From Nitrosomonas sp. JL21 (GTDB lineage: Bacteria > Pseudomonadota > Gammaproteobacteria > Burkholderiales > Nitrosomonadaceae), in assembly GCF_009833095.1 (NCBI RefSeq), contig NZ_QRCB01000035.1:1-64000 (forward strand): a stretch of DNA of 64,000 bases, written 5' to 3'. Shown here one piece after another: positions 14,013-43,352 of this stretch. Under the pieces are notes generated by a model. That model was given only the letters and a program-made list of their open reading frames with translations, was not told the origin of the DNA and did not search any database. The first letter of the stretch is position 1. Every line of letters begins with the position of its first letter. A program made the position numbers and the translations under genes.

Positions 14013-14578
14013 ACTTTTCATCCGCTTGCCGGTATATCGGGCAAGGTTCTGAAAAAGTTATTGGCGACACGCCCAGAAATAATACATCATCGCTCAAAAG
14101 GGCGACTTATGGATACTCAGTGAGTATTCTAAGCCTGATCCGACTCAGTACATTCCAGAACTAGTCACTTTCCCAGAACTTTCCTAAGAAAACTCTGATT
14201 GATTGGTTGCGCAAGCGAAACGCTCCGTGCGTGATCTTTATTATTGTGTTGAGTCATCTCGGTGGCTGCGCCCCATACGCCTCACGCTTCCTCGCGTTCA
14301 TCGAATGAATCAGCATTTTTCTAAGTAATGACTTAGAGATTTCTCCTGAATGCCTTTACAGCCTAATCAGATTAATCCTACTTACTCGACCTTGTTGCTG
14401 GCCGTACTATTAAACCGGGTTAAGAATATGGAAATAATAGACCCTGAATGTAGCATCGAAAGAAAATAATAAAAAGTTTGTCGCACACCAATAAAAAGAA
14501 CTGTGGCGCTGGATTCAAGTGGCCCAGTCAAACAGTCTCCTAAATTTATATATAAAAAAAATTACGGAGGTAAATAAA
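14005..14578. other. Intergenic region before the haem peroxidase gene
   Basis: About 570 bp without a convincing gene on either strand. It contains a 15-bp hyphenated palindrome ATACTCAGTGAGTAT (14113-14127) and becomes AT-rich towards the peroxidase start. No clear sigma-70 promoter could be singled out. Confidence 0.6.
14113..14127. promoter_or_regulatory. 15-bp palindrome upstream of the peroxidase gene
   Basis: ATACTCA-G-TGAGTAT is a perfect 7-bp inverted repeat around one base, about 450 bp upstream of the peroxidase start. It could be an operator for a dimeric regulator. The distance is large and no family was recognised. Confidence 0.3.
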
Positions 14579-17500
14579 ATGGCTAATTTCAGTAGAACCG
14601 ATCTTGATTTCATCATTCAACAAGCAATCATTTCCGAGGCCGATTCAGCAGCTCAGGTTGGCGGTAATTTCAATGCATTGCCGGGATTGATAGGCAGCCC
14701 GCTATTGCCCGATGGCCTGCGCAATGTTGATGGAACCTACAATAATCTGCGGCCGGGCAGGTCAACATATGGCGCAGCGGATCAGGTATTTCCGCGTTTG
14801 CTGCCAGCGGATTTAAACGCGGCTGAGCCGGTGGCATTTGATGTGGATGGGCCGGGAGGACAAGCGGTGGGTAATCCGACTTCCTACGCGCAAAACAACG
14901 GCGCGGTATTCGATTCGCAGCCCCGCCTTGTCAGTAATCTGATTGTCGATCAGACCGATGATAATCCTGCAGCCGTTGCCGCTGCGGCAAATACCGATGG
15001 ATCAGTGGCAAATATCGATGGCAAGGGTACGTTCTTCATTCCCAATGTGACGCCGGATGTCGGTTTGTCGGCACCATACAATGCGTGGTTTACTTTCTTC
15101 GGACAGTTTTTTGACCACGGTCTGGATCTCGTCAACAAAGGCGGCAGCGGCACAGTGTTCGTACCCTTGAAGCCGGACGATCCGTTGATCACAGAAGGTC
15201 CGGACGGTATTCCGAACACTGGCGATGAAGTGCAGCCGCAAAATGCGTTTATGCCGTTGTCGCGGGCAAGCAATTTACCAGGGGCCAATGGAATCCGCGG
15301 GGATGGCGATGATGTCCATAACCACATCAATCAAACGACGCCGTTTGTCGATCAGAACCAGACCTATACCTCGCATCCATCGCATCAGGTTTTTCTGCGC
15401 GAATATGCGTTCAATGGCGCGAACGATCCGGTGTCGACCGGTAAGTTGCTGGATGGCGCCGCTGCATTAGGCGGATTGGCGACGTGGGCCGATATCAAAT
15501 TACAAGCGCGGAATTTGCTGGGCATCAATCTGACCGATGTCGATTTGACCAATCTGCCGAAAATTAAAACCGATACGTATGGCAAATTCATTCCCGGCCC
15601 GAACGGTTTTCCGCAACTGATGCTGAACGGCGGTGGATTACTGGAAGGCAATCCTGCTGTGCCGGTGACGATTCCGGCCAATGTGGTTCGCACCGGTCAT
15701 GCCTTTCTGGATGACATCGCTCATACCGCTGCGCCACGCGACTTGAATGGTGCGATGAAACCGGCGGATACCGATAATGCACTGGGGCTTTCAGAATCGA
15801 ATGCCTATGATAATGAATTGCTCGACCGGCATTTCATCACCGGTGATGGCCGCGGCAATGAAAATATCGGCCTCACGACTGTACATACGGTTTTTCATGC
15901 CGAGCACAACCGCAAGGTCGATGAAATCAAGGATTTGGTTCTTGCCAGCAATGATCCTGCATTCATTGCGCAATGGCAATTGCCGGGCGGTGCATGGAAC
16001 GGCGAGCGCTTGTTCCAAGGCGCGCGCTTTGCGACCGAAATGCAGTATCAGCATCTGGTATTCGAAGAATTTGCGCGCAAGGTGCAGCCCAACGTCGACA
16101 TCTTTATCGGCTACAACAGCACGATCGATCCCGCCATCATGGCCGAGTTCGCTCATGTGGTTTATCGCTTTGGTCATTCAATGCTGAACGAGACCGTGGC
16201 TCGAACGGATATTGGGCCGGGAGGATTGCTTGATCCCAACAATATTGACCTGACCGATGCCTTCCTGAATCCGGTGTCCTACGGTGCCGGTTACACCAAT
16301 AACCTCGAAGCGGCCGCTTCCGTAGTGCGGGGTACGACTAAACAGGTTGGCAACGAAATTGACGAATTCGTGACCGAAGCTTTGCGTAATAATCTGCTCG
16401 GATTGCCTCTCGATTTGCCGGCGATCAACATGACGCGCGCACGTGATACCGGTATTCCGTCGTTGAATGAAGCGCGCCGCATGTTCTGGGAAGATACCGG
16501 CCAGAACCCTACGTTGCAGCCGTATGAGAGCTGGGCGGAATTCGGCCTGAACATCCGCCACCCTGAATCGCTGACCAATTTCATCGCGGCATATGGCACC
16601 CATCCCAGCATCACCAGCCAATCGACATTGGATGGTAAGCGGGCTGCGGCGCAGGCGCTCATAAATCAGGAGCGCGTTGATGATAACAGCAATGGCGCCG
16701 TCGATTTCATCAATAGTACCGGTGGCGTTACCGCTCAATCCTCGGGTTTGAATACCGTTGATTTCTGGGTAGGCGGACTGGCTGAGAAGCAATCTCCTTT
16801 CGGCGGATTGCTGGGTCCGACCTTCAACTTTGTATTCGAAACGCAACTTGAAAATCTGCAGGACGGCGACCGCTTTTATTATCTGGCGCGTAACGCCGGG
16901 CTGGATTTTCTCACCCAACTGGAAGAAAACACCTTTGCTGAGCTGATCATGCGCAATCTGCCGGGCGTGAAGCATCTGCCCGCAGATGTCTTCACGACGC
17001 CGGCGTTTACGTTTGAAGTCGCTAACCTGGGCGCAAGCGGACCGATCGTGGACGATCCCGATACGCTGAATGTGAATGAAGCGACATTGCTGAATCATCT
17101 GGGGCAACGCGCGCTGGTTCGCGACACCACACTCGGCCCGAATACCATCCGTTATACCGGCGATCAACATGTGGTCATGGGGGGCAATGACCTCGGTAAT
17201 AATTTCCGTGCCAGCGAAGGCGACGATACGCTGTGGGGCGACGGTGGCGATGATCGCTTGGAAGGCGGCGCCGGCAACGATTCGATCAATGGCGGCGACG
17301 GTAATGACCGCATTACCGATTCGTTCGGCGACGACAATATCAAAGCTGGTGCGGGGCATGACGTCGTCAACGGCGGCCCCGGCATCAATCTGATTCTTGG
17401 CGGCGAAGGCAATGATTTTATCGTAACCGGCCAGGATATCTCGGAGGTGTTTGCAGGCCCGGGCAATGATTTCATTTTCGGCAATACCCCGAACGAAGTC

Positions 17501-19720
17501 ATGATGGGCAATGAGGGTGACGATTGGATTCAAACCGGTACCGCCGATGGCGCGCCCGGGGATAATTTTGATCCGTTCAACCGCGATCCGATTCGCGGCA
17601 ACGATGCCTTTCTCGGTGGCGGCGGTCTGGATGAGTTTCTCGGCGAAGGCGGCGACGATGTAATGAATGGTATGGCCGGTGCCGACAAGAATGACGGTAA
17701 CAGCGGTTTCGACTGGGTCTTCAGCAAAGGCAGCGGTATTCCCGCCGACATCGATCTGACCCGGCCGATCATTCCGGGTGTGCCGGTGGATGTGCTCGAC
17801 CGCTATGATTTTGTTGAAGCCGCTTCCGGATGGAACGAAGACGATGTCATCCGCGGCGATGACGAAACCGCCGCCGAACTGACGCTGGTTGATCCGAACA
17901 CCGGTCAGAACAATGCGCTCGATAACGTCAACAATCCGGCGGGCGGTGGCCATAGCGCTGCGCAGCGGATCGCGATGATCAACGGATTAAGCGATGTGCT
18001 TGACGGCGCTACGTCTTTCGGAGCAGGTAACATTCTGCTGGGCGGCGCTGGTAACGACTTGCTCGAAGGGCGCGGCGGCGATGACATCATCGACGGCGAT
18101 GCCTGGCTCGACGTGCGGATCAGCATCGATACCAACAATGACGGTATCGAAAATATATCGTTCGATAATATGACCAGCGCCTTGCGAACTGCAATGCAAA
18201 ATGGCACTTACCGGCCCGATCAGTTGAAAATTGCGCGCGAAATTCAAACCGCGCTTCCTGGTACGGATGTGGACAGGGTGTTGTATCGGGATGTGTTCGC
18301 CAATTACCAGATCACTTTCAATCCGGATGGATCGGTGACCGTGGCGCACACCAACCCTGCTGTGGCCAATATTGATGATGGCACCGATACCTTGCGCAAT
18401 GTCGAAGAACTGCAGTTCACCGATAGGGTGGTTGTGCTCAATGGCGGCGGAGGGCCTGGCGGCACGCCGGGTGACGATAATCTGGTCGGTACGCCGGGCA
18501 ATGATGTGCTCGATGGCCTGGCTGGAAACGATACCATCAATGGTCTCGGCGGCGTGGATACGTTGATTGGCGGTCCCGGGAACGATACCTTCGTGGTCGA
18601 TACCACGACCGATACCATTACCGAACTGGCGGGTGGTGGCACCGATACCGTGCAGAGCTCGGCGACGTTCACGCTCGGGGCGCAGCTCGAAAATTTGACG
18701 CTGACCGGCGCGGGTGCGATTAACGGCACGGGAAATGCGGCAGCCAATGTCCTGACCGGCAATGCCGGAAACAACACGTTGAGCGGGCTGGGCGGCAACG
18801 ACACGCTGAACGGGTTGGGCGGCGTGGATACGCTGATCGGCGGAGCCGGCAACGACACTTTCATAGTCGATACAACCACCGATACGCTGACCGAAGCGGC
18901 GGGTGGCGGCAACGACACCGTGCAAAGCACGGTAACATTCACGTTGACTGCCCAGTTCGAGAATCTGACCCTCTCCGGGGCAGGTGCCATCAATGGCACC
19001 GGCAATGCTGCGGTCAATATTCTCACCGGTAACGGCGGCAATAATACCCTGAATGGATTGGGCGGCAACGATTCATTGAATGGCCAGGGAGGAATCGATA
19101 CCTTGATTGGTGGCGCGGGTAATGATATCTATGTCGTGGATACCGCCACTGATGTGATTACCGAATTGGCCGGCGGCGGTACCGATACGGTGCAAAGTTC
19201 CGTAACCATAACGCTGGCTGCTCAAACCGAGAATCTGACGTTGACCGGCGTGGCTGCAATCAATGGCACAGGAAACGGCGGAGCCAACACGATAACCGGT
19301 AACGCCAGCAGTAATTCGCTGAGTGGCTCGAGTGGCAACGACACGCTGAATGGCGGTGATGGAAACGATATACTCATCGGCGGGGCCGGTCTCGATACCT
19401 TGACGGGTGGCGCGAATGCGGATATCTATCGCTATACCGCGACCCTTGCTGACTCGAATGGCGCTACGCGCGATGTCATCAATGGATTTGTTACCGGAAC
19501 CGATGATGTCGACCTCAGTTTGATTGATGCCAACGCCGGGGTCGGCGGTAATCAAGCGTTTGCCTTCATTGGCGGCGCTGCATTCAGTGCGGCCGGCCAA
19601 GTGCGCTATGCTGGCGGAATATTGGAAGCAAACGTCGGTGGCGCTAACGGCAATGCAGCCGACTTTCAGATTCAGTTGGCAGGCGCGCCGACATTCGTTG
19701 CTGGTGATTTGATTCCCTGA
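14579..19720 (+). CDS. Secreted animal-type haem peroxidase with RTX repeats
   Basis: A 1713-residue protein. Residues about 30-820 match the animal haem peroxidase superfamily (peroxidasin/cyclooxygenase type) with all key residues: distal His180 in GQFFDHGLDL, catalytic Arg445 in HAEHNRKV, proximal His533 in VYRFGHSML. From about residue 868 come RTX nonapeptides (GGDGNDRIT, GGEGNDFI) that bind calcium, then three 90-residue tandem units, and a C-terminal stretch typical of type I secretion signals. There is no N-terminal signal peptide. ATG 14579 has GGAGG 8 bp upstream; a GTG 20 codons earlier lacks this. No type I exporter genes are adjacent. It probably acts outside the cell in oxidation or halogenation chemistry, antimicrobial defence or biofilm; the substrate is unknown. 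Confidence 0.92.
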   Translation: MANFSRTDLDFIIQQAIISEADSAAQVGGNFNALPGLIGSPLLPDGLRNVDGTYNNLRPGRSTYGAADQVFPRLLPADLNAAEPVAFDVDGPGGQAVGNPTSYAQNNGAVFDSQPRLVSNLIVDQTDDNPAAVAAAANTDGSVANIDGKGTFFIPNVTPDVGLSAPYNAWFTFFGQFFDHGLDLVNKGGSGTVFVPLKPDDPLITEGPDGIPNTGDEVQPQNAFMPLSRASNLPGANGIRGDGDDVHNHINQTTPFVDQNQTYTSHPSHQVFLREYAFNGANDPVSTGKLLDGAAALGGLATWADIKLQARNLLGINLTDVDLTNLPKIKTDTYGKFIPGPNGFPQLMLNGGGLLEGNPAVPVTIPANVVRTGHAFLDDIAHTAAPRDLNGAMKPADTDNALGLSESNAYDNELLDRHFITGDGRGNENIGLTTVHTVFHAEHNRKVDEIKDLVLASNDPAFIAQWQLPGGAWNGERLFQGARFATEMQYQHLVFEEFARKVQPNVDIFIGYNSTIDPAIMAEFAHVVYRFGHSMLNETVARTDIGPGGLLDPNNIDLTDAFLNPVSYGAGYTNNLEAAASVVRGTTKQVGNEIDEFVTEALRNNLLGLPLDLPAINMTRARDTGIPSLNEARRMFWEDTGQNPTLQPYESWAEFGLNIRHPESLTNFIAAYGTHPSITSQSTLDGKRAAAQALINQERVDDNSNGAVDFINSTGGVTAQSSGLNTVDFWVGGLAEKQSPFGGLLGPTFNFVFETQLENLQDGDRFYYLARNAGLDFLTQLEENTFAELIMRNLPGVKHLPADVFTTPAFTFEVANLGASGPIVDDPDTLNVNEATLLNHLGQRALVRDTTLGPNTIRYTGDQHVVMGGNDLGNNFRASEGDDTLWGDGGDDRLEGGAGNDSINGGDGNDRITDSFGDDNIKAGAGHDVVNGGPGINLILGGEGNDFIVTGQDISEVFAGPGNDFIFGNTPNEVMMGNEGDDWIQTGTADGAPGDNFDPFNRDPIRGNDAFLGGGGLDEFLGEGGDDVMNGMAGADKNDGNSGFDWVFSKGSGIPADIDLTRPIIPGVPVDVLDRYDFVEAASGWNEDDVIRGDDETAAELTLVDPNTGQNNALDNVNNPAGGGHSAAQRIAMINGLSDVLDGATSFGAGNILLGGAGNDLLEGRGGDDIIDGDAWLDVRISIDTNNDGIENISFDNMTSALRTAMQNGTYRPDQLKIAREIQTALPGTDVDRVLYRDVFANYQITFNPDGSVTVAHTNPAVANIDDGTDTLRNVEELQFTDRVVVLNGGGGPGGTPGDDNLVGTPGNDVLDGLAGNDTINGLGGVDTLIGGPGNDTFVVDTTTDTITELAGGGTDTVQSSATFTLGAQLENLTLTGAGAINGTGNAAANVLTGNAGNNTLSGLGGNDTLNGLGGVDTLIGGAGNDTFIVDTTTDTLTEAAGGGNDTVQSTVTFTLTAQFENLTLSGAGAINGTGNAAVNILTGNGGNNTLNGLGGNDSLNGQGGIDTLIGGAGNDIYVVDTATDVITELAGGGTDTVQSSVTITLAAQTENLTLTGVAAINGTGNGGANTITGNASSNSLSGSSGNDTLNGGDGNDILIGGAGLDTLTGGANADIYRYTATLADSNGATRDVINGFVTGTDDVDLSLIDANAGVGGNQAFAFIGGAAFSAAGQVRYAGGILEANVGGANGNAADFQIQLAGAPTFVAGDLIP
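18524..19333 (+). repeat. Three tandem 270-bp (90-residue) repeats in the peroxidase gene
   Basis: Units begin at 18524, 18794 and 19064, and the opening motif recurs at 19334, so the period is exactly 270 bp. Each unit encodes GGxDTLIGGxGND followed by VDT.TD..TE.AGGG.DTVQS, ENLTL.G..AINGTGN and GNxxxN.L.G. The copies are clearly related but have drifted in third positions. This is coding repetition inside the RTX region, not a CRISPR array. Confidence 0.95.
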
Positions 19721-33843: not shown

Positions 33844-34536
33844 TTATACTCCATCAGTTTCAAAAACGACTATTTGGGCATTACTGCGCTGCAATAACCA
33901 CACAATCGGCCATTGCGGGTCAGGAGAACGGTTCACGCGATCCAATAATTGGCGCTTGGTTTTGCCGGTGACTACCAGCACGATATGTTCGCTGACAGCC
34001 AGCATATCGAGTGACAGGCTGACGCGCAGCGATGGTGCTGCTGGCGGCGCTGCGATGATGCAATGATCAGGCGGAAACGCATCGGCATTCATGCCGGGAA
34101 AAAGGGAAGCAATATGCCCATCTTCTCCCAGACCCAACACGGTCAGTGTCAATGGTAATGGCAGAGAACTCAGTCGATGATGGATGGCGCTGAGGGCATC
34201 GAATGGGTTTGCATGCTGAGTTTTTAGACCGATAAAGCGCGTGTTGGCGGGAAGATGCGCCAGTAAATAGTTTTTTATCAGGCGTTCATTGGATTGCTCA
34301 TCATCGCTATCTACCCAGCGCTCATCGGATAGTGTGATCGTGATTCGATCCCAGGGCAGTGCGCATTTCGCCAATGCCGGCAGATAATGGCGCGGCGTGC
34401 TGCCGCCCGGCACAACCAGCGCAGCCTGAGGCTGGTGGAGCAGCGACTGCTGCAGGACAGTTGCCGCATGCTCGGCAAAGGCATGGCTGAGCGATTCCAT
34501 GTCGGGGAAAACATGCCGTTGCATCGAGGCGGGCAT
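33844..34536 (-). CDS. pgl: 6-phosphogluconolactonase
   Basis: A 230-residue protein of the 6-phosphogluconolactonase/glucosamine-6-phosphate isomerase fold. The family text is clear: VVPGGSTPRHYLPAL, ITLSDERWVDSDDEQSNE, and LGLGEDGHIASLFPG. It hydrolyses 6-phosphogluconolactone in the pentose phosphate pathway. It is the last gene of a six-gene minus-strand operon and its ATG directly follows the stop of the HAD gene (TAGATG). No zwf or gnd is next to it, so a role linked to the sugar operon is possible. Confidence 0.93.
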   Translation of the reverse strand: MPASMQRHVFPDMESLSHAFAEHAATVLQQSLLHQPQAALVVPGGSTPRHYLPALAKCALPWDRITITLSDERWVDSDDEQSNERLIKNYLLAHLPANTRFIGLKTQHANPFDALSAIHHRLSSLPLPLTLTVLGLGEDGHIASLFPGMNADAFPPDHCIIAAPPAAPSLRVSLSLDMLAVSEHIVLVVTGKTKRQLLDRVNRSPDPQWPIVWLLQRSNAQIVVFETDGV

Positions 34537-35178
34537 CTAAACGATCAGCCCGCGGAGATCGGGAACGGTTTCCACGTAAGCGGGAAAAGGACTCGGGTCA
34601 CCGGGATGAACGCGCCCCAGGAACGCAGTGTCGTTGGCCTCGGCGCCTTCCAGATCAGCCATCGCATCGCCTATCATGAGCACGGATTCAGATTTAAGTG
34701 CATGGGTCGATAAAATGTCGGCAATGATCGTTTTTTTGAGGGCGGGCGCACCGCGAACTTCAGTGAAATATTGCGCTAAGCCACGCCGTTCGACGATGAT
34801 CTTAAGCTCTGTCTCCGGCGTGCCGGAAGCAACGAATAACGGAATTCTCTGCGATTGCTGGCGGATCAGCTCGATTGCGCCAGGCACGGCTTCAGCAGCG
34901 ATGACAGCTTCGACCACTAATTCCGAGAAGCGCAGATCCAGCGCTTTTTCTTGCGCTTCGGTCAGCGGCGGCTTATTCAGCAGGTGTTCCTGAAAATGGC
35001 GGAATTTCCGGTAACGCGACATACCGCCATTTTGAGTATGGAACTGCACCACGGCATTGACGACATCTTCCCCGTAAGGACGGTAGAGATCGGCGAATGC
35101 CTGGGTCTTGATTTTTCCGGATTCCACGATGACGCCATCAAAATCAAAAATGATCGCTTGCCAATCAAGGACGTTCAT
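34537..35178 (-). CDS. HAD-superfamily phosphatase (beta-phosphoglucomutase-like)
   Basis: A 213-residue HAD subfamily IA protein with motif I IIFDFDGVIVES, a cap domain, motif II LFVASGTP, Lys in PALKKTII and motif IV SVLMIGDAMADLEGA. This set fits sugar-phosphate phosphatases or mutases. In this operon it could remove the phosphate from a sugar-acid precursor, as KdsC does in Kdo synthesis, though KdsC has a different (capless) HAD form. It lies 6 bp after the epimerase gene. Confidence 0.85.
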   Translation of the reverse strand: MNVLDWQAIIFDFDGVIVESGKIKTQAFADLYRPYGEDVVNAVVQFHTQNGGMSRYRKFRHFQEHLLNKPPLTEAQEKALDLRFSELVVEAVIAAEAVPGAIELIRQQSQRIPLFVASGTPETELKIIVERRGLAQYFTEVRGAPALKKTIIADILSTHALKSESVLMIGDAMADLEGAEANDTAFLGRVHPGDPSPFPAYVETVPDLRGLIV

Positions 35179-35184
35179 AGCCCA

Positions 35185-36129
35185 TTATGCCCGGTTGTCG
35201 GATGTGGTTGGCGTAGCGTCATCGTTTTCATCGCCATGGTGCAGATGCTGGTGGATTTCGCGCAGGCAATCGAGTATGCCTTGCCCCAGATCGACATGTT
35301 CATTCAGCACCAGTTTTCTGCCGATGCGCGGTTGGAAAGCATAGGGCGTGATTTCGTAATGATGCACGGTATTGGCTTCGTCGAAATGCAGTTCAACCGG
35401 CCACGGCAGCATTTCCGAGATCATCGTCATCACATCCTTGATGCGCAGTTTTTCCTGGCCGGTCAGAATCAGGTGGCGATTGGCAAATTCGGGCGCAAGG
35501 ATTTGCACGCTCATGCGTGCGGCATCTTCGACGTGAATGTATTCGCGCATGGCTTCACCGCTGCCTTTGTAGGTAATGGCATGGTGCTCGACCGCTTCTT
35601 GCAGCATGCGGTAAATGCCGTTGCGCTTGTCGGCGCGCCTGCCATATAGCGAACCGTAGCGCAGAATGTTGTAATTCAGGCCGTAGCGTTCATGATAGGT
35701 TTCGGTGAAGCGCTCGGCAGCCTGCTTACTGGCGCGATAAAAAGATCCTGATTCGGAGTATACATAGACACTGCTGGCGAAGACGAAGCGGCGGGCACCG
35801 GCGATGCGCGCAGCTTCCAGCGCGTGCATATTGCCCAAAACATTGATGGTCGCGGTTGGTATGGGCTTGTCGTGGGCTTCATCGATATCGGCAATGGCGG
35901 CGAAGTTGTAGACGATCGATGATCCCTTGGCGGCTTCGATGACTTGCTCGAGATTCATGATATCGCCCACGATCATTTCCTGATTGTTCTTAAGGTACGG
36001 CGATGGGCTGCGGTCAAATAACCGTACCTGGTAGCCTGCGGCGGTCAATGCGTCAGCAACATGACTGCCCAAGAAGCCGCTGGCGCCGAATACAATGACC
36101 TTTTCGTTGGATATCGCTTTATCGATCAT
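35185..36129 (-). CDS. NAD-dependent sugar epimerase/dehydratase
   Basis: A 314-residue extended short-chain dehydrogenase. The NAD-binding motif is FGASGFLGSHV near residue 14, and the active-site motif is YRASK, preceded by VFASSVYVYS. The fold acts on nucleotide sugars as epimerase, dehydratase or reductase; the substrate is unknown. The start overlaps the end of the dehydrogenase gene by 4 bp. The C-terminal tail is His- and Asp-rich (HQHLHHGDENDD). Confidence 0.87.
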   Translation of the reverse strand: MIDKAISNEKVIVFGASGFLGSHVADALTAAGYQVRLFDRSPSPYLKNNQEMIVGDIMNLEQVIEAAKGSSIVYNFAAIADIDEAHDKPIPTATINVLGNMHALEAARIAGARRFVFASSVYVYSESGSFYRASKQAAERFTETYHERYGLNYNILRYGSLYGRRADKRNGIYRMLQEAVEHHAITYKGSGEAMREYIHVEDAARMSVQILAPEFANRHLILTGQEKLRIKDVMTMISEMLPWPVELHFDEANTVHHYEITPYAFQPRIGRKLVLNEHVDLGQGILDCLREIHQHLHHGDENDDATPTTSDNRA

Positions 36130-37058
36130 GATAGAACGCCTGTTTTGATGAGACCTTGCAATAAATTCTCTGCCGCTTCGATTTCCATGCGTTGCCGGGA
36201 TTCCCGGGCGAGAGAACCGACATGCGAAGCCAGAAGAATGTTGTCCGATCCAATGAGTGGGCCTTGATAGGGTTCCTGCTCGAATACATCCAGAGCAGCG
36301 GCACTGATTTTGCCGGCGCGTAATGCCTCGGCGAGCGCATCTTCATCCACCAAGCCGCCGCGAGCTGCATTGATGACGATCGCGTCGGGTTTCATCGCAG
36401 CGAAAGCCTTGGTGTTCAGCAGATGATGCGTATCTGCCGAATAAGGCACATGCAGCGTCACGATATCAGCGTTCGCCAGTAATGTATCGAGCGGCACCAG
36501 TGTCACGCCGGTTGGCGCTTGACTGATATACGGATCATGCGCGATGACAGTGGCTTCAAACGCCTGACACAGTCGCGCAACGCGCCGGCCGATGTATCCC
36601 AGTCCGATGATGCCGACAGTCTGGGCTGCCAACAATCGTCCCTGCGTGCGCGGCCATTGTCCATTGCGCACCGCTTGATCGATCGATTTGATTTGCCGCA
36701 GCAGAGCGAGGATGAATCCCATCGTTAATTCGGCGACCGCTTGGGCGGGCGCTTCCGGCGTATTCAGAACGCTGATGCCGTGTTGATGCGCAGCCGCCAG
36801 ATCGACGCTGTCCAAGCCGGCACCGCAGCGCGAAATCACTTTAAGATGGTCGGCAGACTGCAATACCCGCTCCGTCAGCGGTTCGATCCCTGCAATCAGG
36901 CCCACCGCTCCATGACCGAGCAATTCGCTGATCTCATCTTCAGTCAGCTTACGCCGATGCGGATTGGTGATGATGTTGAAGCCATTTTCCAATAAATGCT
37001 GGAGCGGCGGATTATTGTCGATGTCGAACGAAGATGTGGAAATGACCAATGTACTCAT
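36126..37058 (-). CDS. D-isomer 2-hydroxyacid dehydrogenase
   Basis: A 310-residue NAD-dependent dehydrogenase of the D-3-phosphoglycerate/glycerate dehydrogenase type. The cofactor motif is VGIIGLGYIGRRVA; catalytic residues lie in INAARGGLVDE (Arg), DVFEQEP (Glu) and LLASHVGS (His). It lacks the extra C-terminal regulatory domain of long SerA enzymes. In this operon it may oxidise or reduce a 2-keto or 2-hydroxy acid made with the neighbouring aldolase. It overlaps both neighbours by 4 bp. Confidence 0.9.
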   Translation of the reverse strand: MSTLVISTSSFDIDNNPPLQHLLENGFNIITNPHRRKLTEDEISELLGHGAVGLIAGIEPLTERVLQSADHLKVISRCGAGLDSVDLAAAHQHGISVLNTPEAPAQAVAELTMGFILALLRQIKSIDQAVRNGQWPRTQGRLLAAQTVGIIGLGYIGRRVARLCQAFEATVIAHDPYISQAPTGVTLVPLDTLLANADIVTLHVPYSADTHHLLNTKAFAAMKPDAIVINAARGGLVDEDALAEALRAGKISAAALDVFEQEPYQGPLIGSDNILLASHVGSLARESRQRMEIEAAENLLQGLIKTGVLS

Positions 37059-37825
37059 GAATTTTTCAATGTTGCGCGGATGGTTTGTAAATGGGAACGG
37101 CAGATCGCATCCAGGATACGGATATCCAATCCGTAGCCGAGGAAATTGAAACCGGCTTGAATGCGTTGCTGCAATGCTTGAAGATCGGGTTCGATGACAT
37201 GAATGCCGCCGGGTTTGCCGGCACGGCGCCCCGCTTCGAGCACCTGGGCAATCGCTGCTTGCACTTCGGGATGATCGAGATCGCCCGGGCGGCCCATCGA
37301 CCCTGATAAGTCATACGGTCCGATGATATATGCATCGATGCCCGGCACCGCCAAGATCTGATCGATGGCTTGGACTGCGTCGACATGCTCGATCATCACC
37401 ACGATGACTGCATTGTCGTCGAGCCACTGCCGGTACGCCTGGAAACTGGCGCCATAGCCTTGCGCTCGTGCCAGACCTACGCCGCGTTGCCCGCGCGGGG
37501 GATAATAAACGCCTTCGACTGCGGCCTTGGCATCCGCAGCAGATTTGATCATCGGCACCATGATGCCGGTCGCACCCGCATCCATCACGCGTTTGATCTG
37601 GTCAGAGTGATTGGATGTCAGACGCACGATGGCGGGGCACTCCTTGCCATCTAAAACCTGGATGATGGATTGCACGTCGCTGAGTTCCAAGACGCTGTGT
37701 TCCATATCGAGTACCAGCCAGTCGAATCCTGCTGCCGCCATGATCTCGGCGATTGACGAATGCCCGAGGGTGACCCATGAGCCGATGGTCAATTCCAATC
37801 GATTCAGACGTGATTTCAAAGTCAT
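37055..37825 (-). CDS. HpcH/HpaI-family 2-keto-3-deoxy acid aldolase
   Basis: A 256-residue class II (metal-dependent) aldolase of the HpcH/HpaI family. Typical segments are IGSWVTLGHSSIAEIMAAAGFDWLVLDMEHS, GATGIMVPMIKSAADAKAAVEGVYYPPRG, and IEHVDAVQAIDQILAVPGIDAYIIGPYDLS (metal site Glu/Asp). These enzymes join or split pyruvate and an aldehyde to give 2-keto-3-deoxy acids. Next to a kdsB-like gene it is a candidate for making the sugar acid that is then activated with CMP. It is 18 bp after the kdsB-like gene. Confidence 0.9.
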   Translation of the reverse strand: MTLKSRLNRLELTIGSWVTLGHSSIAEIMAAAGFDWLVLDMEHSVLELSDVQSIIQVLDGKECPAIVRLTSNHSDQIKRVMDAGATGIMVPMIKSAADAKAAVEGVYYPPRGQRGVGLARAQGYGASFQAYRQWLDDNAVIVVMIEHVDAVQAIDQILAVPGIDAYIIGPYDLSGSMGRPGDLDHPEVQAAIAQVLEAGRRAGKPGGIHVIEPDLQALQQRIQAGFNFLGYGLDIRILDAICRSHLQTIRATLKNS

Positions 37826-37843
37826 AACGTTATTCCTAATATC

Positions 37844-38593
37844 CTAATAGTGAGCGAGCAGGGGATCCGATTCCATCAGTTTGGCAACGCGCGCCAAGTC
37901 CGCTGGCGTGTCAACTGCCTGGGTATTGAAAGTGGTATGCACCATTTTGACGTGCATGCCGTGTTCGAGCAGGCGCAGCATGTCGACCGATTCCAATTGC
38001 TCGAGCGGCGTCGGCGTCAGACGGGTGTATTGAAACAGCGTTTCCCGGCGAAATGGGATGATGCATACCTGCTTATACGCGGCGGTATCGGCAAACCCCG
38101 TTTTCGCGAGACTTGGGATCGGGCGGCGCGACATGTACAACGCATCATTGTGGCGATTCATGACGACCTTGATGGTATTGACATCGAGATAGTCCGCTTC
38201 ATCTTCGATTCTACGCACCAGGTTGACGCAACCCAGCGCCGGGTCATCACGAAAGGGCGCCACGGCTGTGTCGATCATATCGGGATGAGTCATCGGCTCA
38301 TCGCCTTGCACCATGACGATCAGATCGGCATCGAGATGAGTGACGGCTTCTGCGACGCGATCACTGGCGCGCTCGTGAGTATCGGCGGTCATGATCACGC
38401 GTGCACCAAAATTTTCTGCAATGTCGCGGATTTCATCGTCGCAAGTGGCGATATACGTGGCATCGAGCGATCTGCTCATGGCCACTCGCTTATAGATGTG
38501 TTCGATCATAGGGCGACCCAGGATAGCAGCGATCGGTTTGCCTGGAAATCGGGATGAGCCCATGCGGGCAGGTATTACAGCGATAGTTTTCAT
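37844..38593 (-). CDS. KdsB-like CMP-sugar acid cytidylyltransferase
   Basis: A 249-residue nucleotidyltransferase of the 3-deoxy-manno-octulosonate cytidylyltransferase family. Motifs are IPARMGSSRFPGKPIAAI, YIATCDDEI, MTADTHERASDRVAEA and IVMVQGDEPM, all matching KdsB. It would transfer CMP from CTP to a 2-keto-3-deoxy sugar acid. Housekeeping KdsB normally sits among LPS genes; here it leads an operon with an aldolase and dehydrogenase, so the sugar may not be Kdo. It is first in the operon, facing away from the glycosyltransferase genes. Confidence 0.85.
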   Translation of the reverse strand: MKTIAVIPARMGSSRFPGKPIAAILGRPMIEHIYKRVAMSRSLDATYIATCDDEIRDIAENFGARVIMTADTHERASDRVAEAVTHLDADLIVMVQGDEPMTHPDMIDTAVAPFRDDPALGCVNLVRRIEDEADYLDVNTIKVVMNRHNDALYMSRRPIPSLAKTGFADTAAYKQVCIIPFRRETLFQYTRLTPTPLEQLESVDMLRLLEHGMHVKMVHTTFNTQAVDTPADLARVAKLMESDPLLAHY

Positions 38594-38633
38594 GAATCTG
38601 TCGTGAAATTAAAGAGTGGTTGACATCGGTATG

Positions 38634-38659
38634 AGTTTTAAAAGACACCCTTTAAAACT
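38634..38659. promoter_or_regulatory. AT-rich inverted repeat between divergent polysaccharide operons
   Basis: AGTTTTAAA (38634-38642) and TTTAAAACT (38651-38659), a perfect 9-bp inverted repeat with an 8-bp spacer, 41 bp upstream of the kdsB-like start. A candidate operator or a hairpin in the leader RNA. The wider 38594-38880 gap holds no gene. Confidence 0.4.
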
Positions 38660-38880
38660 GTTTTGCTGATTATCAGGTTTTTCCTGTTTGTTGAGCAATA
38701 ATTATTGTTAAACTTGACGAATTTTTTACATGGCGCGTTTTATGATGGTCATTCTGGTTCGTTGCTGGTAATTGAAGGGTGGCCGGAGTAAAATGGCGCG
38801 CTTTGCAGAATATCCTGTTTAATAAGGAAAATACAACAGATGTCAGGTATCGAATACCGTTATGTCTTCATAACCCTGTT

Positions 38881-40146
38881 ATGAAAGCGCTTTTTTTTCT
38901 CCGTCATTACAATGATATTGATCATGTCACTCCGGTTATCTACAAATGGATCCAATCGGGTCATCAGTGCGATGTGGTTTTAATCGGTTCACCGAAATTC
39001 CGTCGCGATTTTCGCGTTCAGTTCCTAAGCCAGCTTCCGGGCGTGCGCGTGACGCATATTCGTGAATTATTTGCCTGGATGGATTACATCAAATGGCGCC
39101 TGCAGATGTTGTTGCTGACGCGCAATGTCCGGCGCATTAAGATCATCGGTCCGTTGGTCACCAAAATCGCCGAGCGGTTTGATGAAAAAGAACGCGAACC
39201 ATTATGGCGGCACACTGCAGAGTTCTTGTTGAACAGAAGCTTCGGCGATTACCACAAAGGTGTGGTGGCGTTCGATTGGATCGAGCGGAATTCCGTCATT
39301 TGTGTCGAATGGGTTGAGGTCGTGGTAGCCATGGCAAAGAATCGTGGACTGGGAACGGTGTCGTTGCCGCATGGCGACAGCCCACACGCCAGTCAATTGA
39401 TTCGCCGGGGTGAGCGGTTCAAGGAACCCGATGTGACCTTTTCGGCAGCCACGATATTTGATCGTGTCGTGGTGCCGAATGAGTTATGCGCGACACGCTT
39501 TCGGCCCTTCATGGCAGAACATCAGCTTGCTGTGCTGGGTTCGCCACGCTACTGTGAGGAATGGCTGAAAATTCTCGCCGGCTTGATGCCGCCGTCGCCC
39601 CTCGTGCGTTCGGGCAGCCGGCTCAAGATCGTCATGTTCCTGAGAAAAGCCAATTTCACGACTTTCTGGGAAGAAGTCGGTGAGGTCGTGCATATGATTG
39701 CACAATTTCCCGAAGTCGAATTGATCATCAAACCGCATACCCGCAGCGGTTGGAAGCAATCATTGACGAAAGACAGTTCAATCCGGCAATTGCCCAATGT
39801 GCGAGTGGCCGGTGATGATGCGCATTCGGTACATTTGATGAATTGGTCTGATGTGATCATCGATTTGGCCACATCCGTGGTGTTTGAGGCGGTGCGCGCC
39901 AAGAAGCCGGTTCTGGCTGCGGATTACTTGATAGCAGCCCGCTCAGCGGTGGCGTACTACATGCCTGAAACCGAGTTGAAATGCCGCGATGACGTTTATG
40001 AACACATTAAAAACTTCCTGGAAAATGGATGTGATTCTTTTTATGTTGAAGCGCATCGGCAGCGTTTTCTGAAAGAAATGCTGGATTTTCCGGATGCGGA
40101 AGTATTGCCTCGTTATGTGGCATTATTGGAGCAATCCGCACACTGA
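38881..40146 (+). CDS. Putative surface-polysaccharide transferase (GT-B-like)
   Basis: A 421-residue protein beginning MKALFFLRHYNDIDH. The C-terminal half resembles capsule-synthesis or CDP-glycerol-type transferases: ELIIKPHTRSG, then WSDVIIDLATSVVFEAVRAKKPVLAADYL, the acceptor/donor-side signature of such GT-B enzymes. It probably attaches a sugar or polyol phosphate to a surface glycan. A GTG start at 38779 would add 34 poorly structured residues, so ATG 38881 is preferred, though no strong Shine-Dalgarno is visible. Confidence 0.7.
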   Translation: MKALFFLRHYNDIDHVTPVIYKWIQSGHQCDVVLIGSPKFRRDFRVQFLSQLPGVRVTHIRELFAWMDYIKWRLQMLLLTRNVRRIKIIGPLVTKIAERFDEKEREPLWRHTAEFLLNRSFGDYHKGVVAFDWIERNSVICVEWVEVVVAMAKNRGLGTVSLPHGDSPHASQLIRRGERFKEPDVTFSAATIFDRVVVPNELCATRFRPFMAEHQLAVLGSPRYCEEWLKILAGLMPPSPLVRSGSRLKIVMFLRKANFTTFWEEVGEVVHMIAQFPEVELIIKPHTRSGWKQSLTKDSSIRQLPNVRVAGDDAHSVHLMNWSDVIIDLATSVVFEAVRAKKPVLAADYLIAARSAVAYYMPETELKCRDDVYEHIKNFLENGCDSFYVEAHRQRFLKEMLDFPDAEVLPRYVALLEQSAH

Positions 40147-40215
40147 GTTGCTTCAATGATATGCATTGTCAGAAGCCGACGGGGTTTAGTCTTATAACAC
40201 GATAAGGTGATCGTG

Positions 40216-40980
40216 ATGCGAGCAAAAGACATTTTGAATGAGCTGGTGGTTGCAGCGTACCGGCTGAAAGGCGGGTATGTCACGATACCGGTGCGGGGGC
40301 AATCGATTGTTATTTCAGTGGATCATCTGCGCACGCTGAAACGTGCCAGAACGTATTCGGTCAAGGAACCGGATACGCTCGATTGGCTCGACAGTTTTGA
40401 ACCGGGTTCATGTTATTTCGATATCGGGGCGAATATCGGCCAATATTCGCTGTATCCGGCCAAGAAGTATGGCGATCAGATCCGCGTCTATGCGTTTGAG
40501 CCGCAAAGTAATAATTATTATGCGCTCAACAAGAATATTTACTTGAATGGTCTCGATGAGAATATTTTGTCGTATTGCGTGGCCGTGTCCGGAAAAAGCG
40601 AATTTTCCAAGCTGTATATTCCCAAGTTCATACCCGGCGGCAATCGTTCCCAGTTTGGCGCGGAAGATATTGAGAATATGAAGATATCTGCGACGCACGT
40701 GCAAGGGATGTTCGGGGTAACGCTGGATGATCTATGCAGCCAGTGGGGATTTCCATATCCGAACTATATCAAGATCGATGTGGACGGGATTGAAGTCCCT
40801 ATTCTCAAGGGCGCTACGGCGGTGTTGGCCAATCCGGCCCTGAGATCCGTCATTGTCGAACTGGGCACTGAAGAGGAGCGAAACACCGCGATTGAGTTGA
40901 TGAAACAAGCCGGTCTCAGCGTCAAACAACGTTCCACCAAGAATTGGGGCGAAGCCTATCTGATATTTGGAAGGGAATGA
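40216..40980 (+). CDS. FkbM-family methyltransferase
   Basis: A 254-residue SAM-dependent methyltransferase of the FkbM type. The SAM-binding motif is CYFDIGANIGQYSLYPAKK, followed by VYAFEPQSNNYYALNKNI, and later NYIKIDVDGIEVPILKGA, which is the FkbM signature. It probably O-methylates a sugar in the surface glycan. ATG 40216 has AAGG 9 bp upstream; GTG 40207 is an alternative. Its TGA overlaps the ATG of the next gene. Confidence 0.9.
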   Translation: MRAKDILNELVVAAYRLKGGYVTIPVRGQSIVISVDHLRTLKRARTYSVKEPDTLDWLDSFEPGSCYFDIGANIGQYSLYPAKKYGDQIRVYAFEPQSNNYYALNKNIYLNGLDENILSYCVAVSGKSEFSKLYIPKFIPGGNRSQFGAEDIENMKISATHVQGMFGVTLDDLCSQWGFPYPNYIKIDVDGIEVPILKGATAVLANPALRSVIVELGTEEERNTAIELMKQAGLSVKQRSTKNWGEAYLIFGRE

Positions 40981-42008
40981 CGGGGTTCGCGCACACGTCG
41001 AATGCGCCAGCCGTCGATGTGATCATTCCGGTATTCAATGCACCGGTTTTGAGCAAGCGTTGCATCGAATCAGTGATCACCTATTTGGGTTCATCCATTC
41101 AGGCGATCCATATTCAAGACGATGCCTCCGATCGTGAAACGGCTGCGATGCTCGATCAGTTGTCCTGTCCACTCCTGCATATCGTTCATGCCCCTAACAA
41201 TCAAGGCTATGGCGCATCTGTGAATGAAGCGATTGCGCGTTCGAAAGCGGATTTTGTGCTGGTGCTCAATTCGGATACCGAATTGCATGAGAATATCTTG
41301 CCGCCCTTGTGCAATGCATTCATGGCTGATTCACAATTAGCCGTGATCAGTCCAGTGCATCAGGATGTCAAGGTCCGGTTCGAGCGCTACCGCCGTCAGC
41401 CTGGTGGTTACATTCTGACGCATCGCTTCCAGGGGTATGGCTTCTTGATTCGACGGGAACTCTTCAATGGACTCGGTGGATTTGATCGACAATTTGGACG
41501 CGGCTATTTCGAAGATACCGATCTGGGACGCAGGCTCGATGGACAGGGTTGGCGCATCGGCGTGCATCCGGATGCGCATATTCTACATGCCGTCGGCGCT
41601 TCTTTTGGGCGCGGACAGTCATACCGCAAGTTGGTGGCGAAAAACCGGGCGAAGTATTTGGCGCGCTATCCTGGAGCCCACCAGAATATTGTATTGATTT
41701 CGGGGCGCTCTACCTACGCAGATTTGCCTGATCAACTGATTGAATCGATCAACCATGTGCTGCGACAGGGCGGGGTCGTTCATTGGCTGACACCGGCGCC
41801 AGTGCAGCAACTACCGTCTTTACAGTTGCGCAACCGTTCGATCAGTTTCAAGAGAATCGTGAAACTGATTTTGCGCGGGTGGTCGCGCGAGGACAAACGA
41901 GTGTCTGCAATATGGGTGTTGCCCGGCGTTTCTGTACTATTGCGCTTGCTGATTACGCTGTGGGTTCGAATGCGCTCTTTGGAGATGCGTACCTGGAAAA
42001 CCGGGTGA
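40977..42008 (+). CDS. Family 2 glycosyltransferase
   Basis: A 343-residue inverting GT-A enzyme. It starts with VDVIIPVFNAPVLSKRCIESV, continues with IQDDASDRETA, APNNQGYGASVNEAI and the metal-binding motif LNSDTE, and has GYFEDTDLGRRLDGQGWRI, typical of rhamnosyltransferase-like family 2. It adds a sugar to a lipid-linked or surface glycan at the inner membrane. A C-terminal hydrophobic stretch may associate with the membrane. The start overlaps the fkbM stop (ATGA). Confidence 0.9.
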   Translation: MTGFAHTSNAPAVDVIIPVFNAPVLSKRCIESVITYLGSSIQAIHIQDDASDRETAAMLDQLSCPLLHIVHAPNNQGYGASVNEAIARSKADFVLVLNSDTELHENILPPLCNAFMADSQLAVISPVHQDVKVRFERYRRQPGGYILTHRFQGYGFLIRRELFNGLGGFDRQFGRGYFEDTDLGRRLDGQGWRIGVHPDAHILHAVGASFGRGQSYRKLVAKNRAKYLARYPGAHQNIVLISGRSTYADLPDQLIESINHVLRQGGVVHWLTPAPVQQLPSLQLRNRSISFKRIVKLILRGWSREDKRVSAIWVLPGVSVLLRLLITLWVRMRSLEMRTWKTG

Positions 42009-42131
42009 GTCGAATCGGGGTACTGATGGCAGCAGAAACATCAATAAAACTTACCAGAAAATCTGGCCTTGCCAGGAAGCACATTGAAATTTGAAATTAA
42101 AAAATCAATGGCTCATCGCATTTCATGATGT

Positions 42132-43352
42132 ATGACTATCACCGGTCCTTGTTCGATGAATCCTATCCGTGCATCCCATCCCTGGCGTGAACCCTTCATC
42201 AAATTGGCGTTGGTGCTGGCTTGTGCAGGATTTTGGCGGAGCGAGCTGAACGTTATTTTATTTCCATTGCTGGGAATCGCATGGCTGTCAGACGGCGGTC
42301 TAGGACGATTATTGCAGACAATCAAAAATCCTTTGGCTCATGCCATTCTTGTGTTATGTGCGCTATTGCTGATGGGATTGTTGTGGAATGACTCGGTGCA
42401 TGACGGACGGATGAAATGGCTGAAATATTTTGTCCTGCTCATGTTTATCCCGTTTTATTCATTGTTGAATAAAGAGCGCGCAGTATGGGCGATCGGTGGA
42501 TTGTTGGCGGGTTATGTCGTTGTCCTGGCGTTGGGGATTCATCAGTGGTTAAATTCAGGTGAACCTGGTGTCGCGCTGATGAGAATGTCTTATCTGAGTT
42601 TTTCCGCGATGCTGGGCGTTGGCATCGTAACGTCAGTGAGTTTTGCCTGTAGAACTCGATCGGCGATGCTAGCGGCAGCGTTATGGGTTGTTGCGCTGGC
42701 ACTGATTTTTGTTCAATTCCATCAGGGTGGCAGAATTCTTCTGTTAGCAACGCTTGTTGTAGTGTTGCTTCTGGCATTTGTGCGCTACAGAATCGACATG
42801 AAGAAATTCGCCGGGATTGCGGTTACTTTGGTGCTGGCGGCTGCGGCGTTTGCATATACCAGCCCTGTCTTTCAAGAAAGGTTGATTCAGATCAGAAGTG
42901 ATGTCGAATTATTGCAACAGGGTGATTACCGGTCGAGTTTGGGATATCGCCTGGCCATGTGGGATGTCGGTTTGCACGGGATTTCCGAGCGGCCTTTCAC
43001 GGGATATGGAACAGGTGCGCCAGAGCGGTATTTTGATAATACGATCCTGACCTATAAGGGTGGTCTTTATCACAATCTGCCGGAATTTCAGAAAACTTCG
43101 CATTTTCATAATGATTGGATAGAAATTGGCTTGCATGTCGGGATTCCTGGCATGATGGCATTATTATTCCTGATGGTGAACTGGTTTCGGGTATTTAAAA
43201 GCGCAGGATTGGGTATTTTGGGTATAGGTTTGATAAGCTATATCCTGCTGTCCGGGTTAACGGATACTTTTTTGATTTTCAGCCGGACACCGGTGTTACT
43301 ACTAATGATTACTGCAATAGCATTGTCTTGGCAGAACAGACCAGTTCATTAG
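42132..43352 (+). CDS. O-antigen ligase/polymerase-like membrane protein
   Basis: A 406-residue polytopic protein with about ten to twelve hydrophobic segments and one large periplasmic loop carrying SSLGYRLAMWDVGLHGISE, PFTGYGTGAPERY and HFHNDWIEIGLHVGIPGMM. This is the Wzy_C/WaaL signature, in which R and H residues join or extend lipid-linked O-chains in the periplasm. It could be the ligase or the polymerase of the glycan made here. It begins 124 bp after the glycosyltransferase gene. Confidence 0.87.
   Translation: MTITGPCSMNPIRASHPWREPFIKLALVLACAGFWRSELNVILFPLLGIAWLSDGGLGRLLQTIKNPLAHAILVLCALLLMGLLWNDSVHDGRMKWLKYFVLLMFIPFYSLLNKERAVWAIGGLLAGYVVVLALGIHQWLNSGEPGVALMRMSYLSFSAMLGVGIVTSVSFACRTRSAMLAAALWVVALALIFVQFHQGGRILLLATLVVVLLLAFVRYRIDMKKFAGIAVTLVLAAAAFAYTSPVFQERLIQIRSDVELLQQGDYRSSLGYRLAMWDVGLHGISERPFTGYGTGAPERYFDNTILTYKGGLYHNLPEFQKTSHFHNDWIEIGLHVGIPGMMALLFLMVNWFRVFKSAGLGILGIGLISYILLSGLTDTFLIFSRTPVLLLMITAIALSWQNRPVH

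Follow-up and report, generated by a model that had tools for sequence, protein, structure and literature searches.

The locus analyzed here raises the question of which sugar acid is made and activated when a KdsB-like cytidylyltransferase is encoded together with an aldolase rather than with KdsA. In the window, a stretch of 64,000 nucleotides from Nitrosomonas sp. JL21, six ORFs occupy the minus strand from 33844 to 38593 (coordinates checked; Table 1), and profile matches bore out the families that the original prediction had assigned to them, namely, CTP_transf_3/KdsB-like, HpcH_HpaI, 2-Hacid_dh, SDR Epimerase, HAD, and pgl. The tight packing claimed for them, with neighboring genes overlapping by no more than 4 bp at most joins, is a fair description of the spacing that we measured (an 18-bp gap between kdsB and the aldolase gene, then -4, -4, +6, and 0 bp). 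Across the gap, where glycosyltransferases, methyltransferases, and an O-antigen-ligase-like gene had been noted, we indeed found genes for a GT-B-type protein, an FkbM methyltransferase, a GT2 glycosyltransferase, a Wzy_C protein, and two methyltransferases on the facing strand. We propose that the first five genes of the operon likely make a CMP-activated 2-keto sugar acid that differs from Kdo and is destined for a surface glycoconjugate in a family that has neither lipid A nor Kdo.

Table 1. Features of the operon and of the facing strand in the Nitrosomonas sp. JL21 window
Feature	Position	Strand	Evidence
KdsB-like CMP-sugar-acid synthetase, 249 aa	37844..38593	-	PF02348 161 bits, NF009905 308 bits
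HpcH/HpaI-type class II aldolase, 256 aa, presumed to catalyze C-C bond formation	37055..37825	-	PF03328 128 bits
D-2-hydroxyacid dehydrogenase, phosphoglycerate-dehydrogenase-like, 310 aa	36126..37058	-	PF02826/PF00389
Extended SDR, nucleotide-sugar epimerase/dehydratase-like, 314 aa	35185..36129	-	PF01370 146 bits
HAD-superfamily phosphatase, beta-phosphoglucomutase-like subfamily, 213 aa	34537..35178	-	PF00702/PF13419
pgl, 6-phosphogluconolactonase, operon end	33844..34536	-	TIGR01198 above cutoff
Divergent intergenic region, presumed operon promoter site	38594..38877	.	Position only
GT-B-fold protein, candidate glycosyltransferase for CMP-sugar acid	38878..40146	+	Predicted model, fold matches
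FkbM methyltransferase, GT2 glycosyltransferase, and Wzy_C O-antigen-ligase-like protein	40207..43352	+	PF05050, PF00535, PF04932

The KdsB-like protein passes only the broader NCBIfam subfamily models and falls below the kdsB equivalog cutoffs of TIGR00466 (143 versus 155.2 bits) and NF003948 (175 versus 281 bits). It belongs to a single clade (100/100) of 22 KdsB sequences of the aldolase-linked type. Residues H181, Y185, E210, and Q211 of E. coli KdsB, which we take to be Kdo contacts in the KdsB/KpsU structures, are changed in 20 to 22 of the 22 clade members, versus being kept in 38 to 39 of 39 canonical KdsB/KpsU sequences; the JL21 protein has Q175, I179, D204, and M205 in their place. 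The CTP/Mg residues R10, R15, K19, Q98, D100, and D235 (E. coli numbering) are kept in the clade, and the JL21 protein retains all of these together with S13. Gln98 of E. coli KdsB touches the sugar (PMC2901514). This sequence signature sets the clade apart from real CMP-Kdo synthetases, and its members are probably misannotated as KdsB. Matches to KdsB on plasmids and phages all had less than 60% identity and, among the matches listed, less than 41%.

Could the product nonetheless be Kdo, formed by an aldolase from arabinose or arabinose 5-phosphate and pyruvate, without KdsA, for a capsule or an exopolysaccharide? Kdo aldolases are known enzymes, the KdsB-like protein has its closest solved relative in KpsU, a CMP-Kdo synthetase of capsules (177.9 bits), and NF009905, whose cutoff is exceeded, carries the subfamily name 3-deoxy-manno-octulosonate cytidylyltransferase, which counts against a non-Kdo product. 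We consider Kdo unlikely nevertheless, given the replacement of the presumed Kdo-pocket residues throughout the clade, the makeup of the Nitrosomonadaceae operon, which lacks an SIS-type isomerase and has two extra NAD-dependent oxidoreductases, and the occurrence of a second KdsB homologue, separate from the first, within one related locus outside the family (L180) and of a second match elsewhere in G825. Compared with the Kdo pathway (KdsD-KdsA-KdsC-KdsB, or KpsU in group 2 capsules), the operon shares a KdsB/KpsU-type cytidylyltransferase with an intact CTP/Mg site, the grouping of a carbon-joining enzyme with a phosphatase and a CMP-transferase, and a surface-glycan setting, but it differs not only in its altered pocket and additional oxidoreductases but also in having an HpcH/HpaI-type aldolase instead of the PEP-dependent KdsA and in residing in a genome without WaaA, LpxC, or an over-cutoff KdsA. 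The CMP-nonulosonate pathways (Neu5Ac, pseudaminic acid, and legionaminic acid) follow the same logic of a CMP-activated 2-keto sugar acid and also involve SDR enzymes. In contrast to them, the operon has a KdsB/KpsU-like cytidylyltransferase that scores far under the PseF cutoff (43.5 versus 205.7 bits) and contains neither a NeuB-type synthase nor an aminotransferase.

We then analyzed the other proteins. The aldolase resembles the HpcH/HpaI class II aldolases (YfaU/RhmA, HpaI, and GarL) in its Pfam fold family, its catalytic Asp/Glu/His/Arg residues, and its metal ligands, all of which are present, and W17, D40, E42, H43, R68, E146, and D172 are invariant in 14 cluster aldolases. It differs from these enzymes in its biosynthetic setting, in a tyrosine (Tyr171) beside the metal-binding Asp where the nearest solved relatives have Ala, and in its scores, which lie below all NCBIfam equivalog cutoffs (192/369 bits for HpaI, 170/407 for GarL, and 156/441 for RhmA, or 35 to 52% of the needed score). 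Expected catalytic residues were likewise found in the dehydrogenase (GxGxxG and the Arg/Glu/His set; best NCBIfam match TIGR01327, 270 bits versus a cutoff of 454), in the SDR (GxxGxxG and YxxxK), and in the HAD phosphatase (DFDGV and GD...D).

HpaI-type aldolases and phosphoglycerate-dehydrogenase-like enzymes are common in catabolism, and pgl, a gene of central metabolism, lies at the operon end in Nitrosomonas; the aldolase and the dehydrogenase might thus serve an unrelated route, catabolic or of the serine/glycolate type, and stand beside kdsB by chance. We find this very improbable, since the pairing recurs in rearranged clusters of other families and tracks the variant KdsB clade. Eight of the nine close KdsB-like relatives outside the Nitrosomonadaceae are found in such clusters with an HpcH/HpaI-type aldolase, mostly accompanied by a 2-hydroxyacid dehydrogenase, versus 0 of 39 canonical KdsB loci with a linked aldolase (Fisher's P = 2e-8, with uneven flank lengths, most canonical loci being covered to 1.5 kb from kdsB). 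Two of these clusters (L177 and L219) have all five genes, three (L178, L179, and L180) combine kdsB and the aldolase and dehydrogenase genes with SIS and Gfo/Idh genes, and another (L220) combines the same three with an SDR gene; L178 and L179 encode an inositol-monophosphatase-type protein where the HAD phosphatase would be. Several of the outside clusters lie amid glycosyltransferase-like, methyltransferase, and surface-carbohydrate genes, which also argues against catabolism. Our literature search found no papers on BFO_1060, LIC13510, or TIGR04326. Because the aldolase and the KdsB-like protein recur together outside the family and the clade has lost the presumed Kdo-pocket residues, a CMP-activated non-Kdo 2-keto sugar acid is the best reading of the operon. 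The original prediction of a 2-keto-3-deoxy acid other than Kdo therefore holds up in its non-Kdo part; the "deoxy" part is unproven, since the dedicated 2-hydroxyacid dehydrogenase could furnish a donor other than pyruvate.

Within the Nitrosomonadaceae, the KdsB-like gene is present in all 89 near-complete genomes, and the order kdsB-aldolase-dehydrogenase-SDR-HAD is identical in 38/38 fully covered loci (L049, from a genome with 8% contamination, was used with caution). The constancy of this five-gene order, together with 67 to 93% identity of the KdsB-like protein across the family, excludes a chance grouping; the SDR, at 74 to 97% identity, ranks with the best-conserved of the operon's proteins. 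The sixth gene, pgl, which had been counted in the pathway set, follows the operon only in Nitrosomonas; the other three genera lack it at that place. We therefore rejected it as a pathway gene, and it is probably just a neighbor at the operon end.

We looked into the LPS genes of the family. Neither LpxC nor WaaA was found in any of 100 sampled Nitrosomonadaceae genomes, versus LptD in 100/100. In the JL21 genome, LpxC and WaaA were not detectable and no KdsA exceeded the cutoff (best score 39.6 bits, cutoff 314), and the lptD-surA-pdxA-ksgA locus is intact. The KdsB-like protein is the sole PF02348 match in this genome, formally the situation that the original prediction had named as speaking against a non-Kdo product; this does not refute that product, because no LPS-Kdo pathway (LpxC, WaaA, and over-cutoff KdsA being absent) is left for KdsB to serve. 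An LPS function deduced from the sole-KdsB status was rejected on the same family-wide counts of LpxC and WaaA. The loss of LPS genes is a context that the original prediction had missed, and on Nitrosomonas LPS we found only a 2010 survey in the literature. To our knowledge, Kdo is regarded as an acidic link that nearly all Gram-negative surfaces share. Here, the loss of lipid A and WaaA extends to a whole family of nitrifying Betaproteobacteria, which retains the LPS export porin and a conserved operon for an apparent substitute acid. These ammonia oxidizers without classical LPS genes all keep the five-gene set, and its product is probably an acidic surface sugar related to, yet distinct from, Kdo. 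Identifying this product would reveal a new activated sugar and shed light on the outer-membrane cover of ammonia oxidizers.

From the gene content, conservation, LPS-gene absence, pocket change, and co-occurrence that we observed, we infer each reaction, the compound formed, and the site to which it is attached. A sugar aldehyde and/or a 2-keto-acid donor (pyruvate or, e.g., hydroxypyruvate) may be prepared by the SDR and the 2-hydroxyacid dehydrogenase, whose roles are guesses. The HpcH/HpaI-type aldolase would then couple aldehyde and donor into a 2-keto sugar acid, at the step where KdsA uses PEP, and the HAD phosphatase would remove a phosphate in a KdsC-like role. The KdsB-like enzyme, with its conserved CTP/Mg site and altered sugar pocket, would add CMP, and the facing GT-B protein may transfer the CMP-sugar acid.

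The GT-B gene divergently adjoins the operon in 99/113 family loci (redundant set) and is absent there in 14/113; it is therefore not an obligatory partner. A sequence-profile search of the PDB with this protein gave no match, and the Pfam profiles yielded no more than faint hints of Glyphos_transf and Capsule_synth. In a structure search with the predicted model (pLDDT 80), the best folds were UDP-GlcNAc 2-epimerase-like and also included a polysialyltransferase (Z 17.9), with many GT-B folds tying and none being CMP-sugar specific. The protein also aligned with the GT-like proteins of the outside clusters (profile similarity 89%, E = 2e-6, 179 columns). The exact start of its gene is uncertain (38779 or 38878). 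A promoter/terminator scan gave matches at chance level, with no excess, and no promoter match above chance in the divergent intergenic region. The FkbM, GT2, and Wzy_C genes provide a surface-glycan context that varies by species and is patchily conserved in the family loci.

To which lipid, if any, would the acid be attached? In the three other genera, a block of cerS-like, NTase, lptF, lptG, and lipid-kinase genes adjoins the operon in 14/17 nontruncated loci (in one of the 14, L069, only the kinase and its neighbor are visible). The block is similar to the phosphosphingolipid cluster of Caulobacter, hinting at an LPS-independent glycolipid. A narrower version of the non-Kdo acid reading, and compatible with it, is that the acid decorates a sphingolipid that replaces lipid A, the glycolipid being exported by the retained Lpt system. 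We hold this as a tentative possibility, to which the block adjacency and the presence of LptD in a family devoid of LpxC both point. According to the available excerpts of two reports (PMC9386255, PMC11324152), N. eutropha has ceramide genes including spt, as well as orthologues of other genes of the Caulobacter phosphosphingolipid (CPG2) cluster, whose LptF2/LptG2 are proposed sphingolipid carriers; these excerpts also favor a sphingolipid link but mention no KdsB/aldolase operon in that cluster. On the other side, the block adjoins the operon in 0/20 Nitrosomonas loci and is lacking in the JL21 window, adjacency by itself is no proof of a joint product, and the Wzy_C/glycosyltransferase context is also compatible with a lipid-independent polysaccharide. 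An spt gene beside the operon was rejected, as two genomes have none in the 19 kb that follow, which also weakens the link. More speculatively still, the lipid A-Kdo core of Nitrosomonadaceae may have been replaced by an Lpt-carried, sphingolipid-anchored glycolipid, with the operon making its inner acidic sugar, an undescribed 2-keto sugar acid, by an aldolase-type CMP-sugar pathway. LptF and LptG of the block pass the NCBIfam cutoffs, and we found the same block on a Pseudomonas plasmid, beside genes for a class I/II aminotransferase, an ACP, an SDR, and an acyl-AMP ligase.

We found all six ORFs of the original prediction, each with a named family, in a tightly packed operon, with joins of 18, -4, -4, 6, and 0 bp from the kdsB-like gene through pgl. 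The expected catalytic motifs were seen in the aldolase, the dehydrogenase, the SDR, and the HAD protein. Judging by named relatives, the window belongs to the Nitrosomonadaceae genus Nitrosomonas. The KdsB-like gene was present in 89/89 near-complete genomes of the family (67 to 93% identity to that of the window), and the first five genes kept the same order in the 38 Nitrosomonadaceae loci with enough sequence, pgl lying downstream of them in Nitrosomonas only. The operon is therefore a family-wide core operon and not an island.

Features discussed, with positions in the window unless another locus is named
Feature	Position	Strand	Description
Operon	33844-38593	-	Six ORFs: kdsB-like, HpcH/HpaI-type aldolase, D-2-hydroxyacid dehydrogenase, extended SDR, HAD phosphatase, pgl
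Candidate glycosyltransferase	38878-40146	+	Divergent to the operon; predicted GT-B fold, pLDDT 80
1733-aa ORF	14519-19720		Candidate; by eye resembles heme peroxidase, then RTX-type repeats
684-aa fusion	L044 (locus in another genome):16380-18434		Beside the operon in one genus; fatty-acid desaturase plus diacylglycerol-kinase catalytic domain

We then compared 22 KdsB-like proteins of the window type (13 from Nitrosomonadaceae and 9 from outside) with 39 canonical ones. In a tree of these 61 proteins, all 22 formed one clade with a support of 100/100, and six alignment columns separated the two groups at a level of at least 85% on each side (window residue/E. coli residue: Cys51/Asp50, Gln175/His181, Ile179/Tyr185, Asp204/Glu210, Met205/Gln211, and Val215/Ile221). 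We take the Kdo site to be lined by His181, Tyr185, Glu210, and Gln211 (E. coli numbering). The CTP-site and Mg-site positions were retained in the clade, as was Gln98, a sugar-contacting residue of E. coli KdsB (PMC2901514). Linkage to an aldolase was seen for 8/9 of the outside clade members versus 0/39 canonical proteins (Fisher P = 2e-8), the canonical loci being mostly read to 1.5 kb only; the ∼12 with wider flanks were likewise without an aldolase. The operon aldolase scored well below every named equivalog. Trp17, Asp40, Glu42, His43, Arg68, Glu146, and Asp172 were kept in 14/14 cluster aldolases, all of which carry Tyr171 versus Ala in the best solved relatives.

Outside the family, KdsB-like proteins of the window type occurred in a handful of the 398 phylum and 369 class genomes searched. 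Two loci (L177 and L219) contained all five enzyme types in gene orders differing from that of the Nitrosomonadaceae operon. Three others (L178, L179, and L180) combined kdsB-like, aldolase, and 2-hydroxyacid dehydrogenase genes with a GmhA-like SIS isomerase and a Gfo/Idh oxidoreductase, and in L178 and L179 an inositol-monophosphatase-type protein took the place of the HAD phosphatase. L220 had kdsB-like, aldolase, SDR, and 2-hydroxyacid dehydrogenase genes, L186 and L049 had kdsB-like and aldolase genes, and the sequence of L176 stops ∼100 bp upstream of kdsB, so that aldolase linkage is not visible there. A TIGR04326 surface-carbohydrate protein adjoins kdsB in L176 and L219. The L220 cluster (genome G825) additionally encodes a 3-dehydroquinate-synthase-like protein, an FAA hydrolase, a DegT aminotransferase, and two GT-like proteins, which suggests a variation on this sugar-acid theme that differs in its chemistry.

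The KdsB-like gene was the only PF02348 match in the window's genome (3.17 Mb, 99.99% complete). The original prediction had named a sole KdsB as grounds for its rejection; that is formally what we found, but it misleads as a refutation, given that our searches of Nitrosomonadaceae detected no LPS-Kdo pathway. In the window's genome, no KdsA exceeded the cutoff (best score, 39.6 bits versus 314), and neither WaaA nor LpxC was found; across the family, LpxC and WaaA were each found in 0/100 genomes. LpxC was present in 191/200 genomes of the order Burkholderiales; of the nine without it, six were Nitrosomonadaceae, two belonged to a second family (f40), and the remaining one was 86% complete. 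LpxC was found in 0/2 f40 genomes (G138 and G182), and the operon's aldolase was not found in them. The loss of LPS genes is not itself new, since a 2010 survey already had N. europaea with lpxK only and N. multiformis with lpxA only (PMC3087551). LptD was found in 100/100 Nitrosomonadaceae genomes, and lptD of the window's genome lies in a normal lptD-surA-pdxA-ksgA locus.

The best-supported reading is that the operon makes, in CMP-activated form, a 2-keto sugar acid distinct from Kdo, by a variant of CMP-ulosonate synthesis. The aldolase would act in the place of KdsA, the HAD or inositol-monophosphatase-type phosphatase in that of KdsC, and the pocket-altered KdsB as the CMP-transferring enzyme, while the dehydrogenase and SDR (or Gfo/Idh and SIS proteins) probably shape precursors. 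The original prediction is partly supported, namely, as regards a CMP-activated non-Kdo acid; the 3-deoxy character of this acid would follow only if pyruvate is the donor.

The gene facing the operon adjoins it in 99/113 Nitrosomonadaceae loci (a redundant set) and is missing there in a Nitrosomonas subgroup, among others. The folds nearest to its model were those of UDP-GlcNAc 2-epimerases, and a polysialyltransferase was also matched (Z 17.9); these model-based matches do not settle its donor. By hhalign, its profile resembles those of GT-like proteins encoded in the outside clusters (89%, E 2e-6, 179 columns).

In three other Nitrosomonadaceae genera, the operon adjoins a sphingolipid-type block in 14/17 nontruncated loci (CC_1160-like, diacylglycerol-kinase-type lipid kinase, lptG, lptF, NTP transferase, and cerS-like genes), the stretch read at one of these 14 (L069) showing the first two genes only and some others ending before cerS. 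The labels cerS-like and CC_1160-like are putative, coming from similarity and gene order; LptF and LptG scored above their cutoffs. This adjacency is absent from Nitrosomonas, window included, and no spt was found within the next 19 kb beyond the operon in the two genomes looked at. The same block adjoins sphingolipid-type genes on a Pseudomonas plasmid. In published work (PMC9386255, PMC11324152), N. eutropha is reported to have ceramide genes as well as orthologues of phosphosphingolipid-cluster genes, and a role in transporting sphingolipids is proposed for LptF2/LptG2 of Caulobacter. As the site of attachment of the sugar, a glycolipid built on a sphingolipid and exported by Lpt is an attractive proposal; a lipid-independent polysaccharide is also possible. 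This setting makes testable the question of what covers the outer membrane of ammonia-oxidizing bacteria.

The fusion protein at L044 is possibly a lipid kinase of the sphingolipid block. Plasmid pBYT5-2 of Pseudomonas sp. BYT-5 (L229), which types as conjugative, has what appears to be a set of sphingolipid genes that includes an lptF and an lptG of its own, so the lipid system may be mobile.
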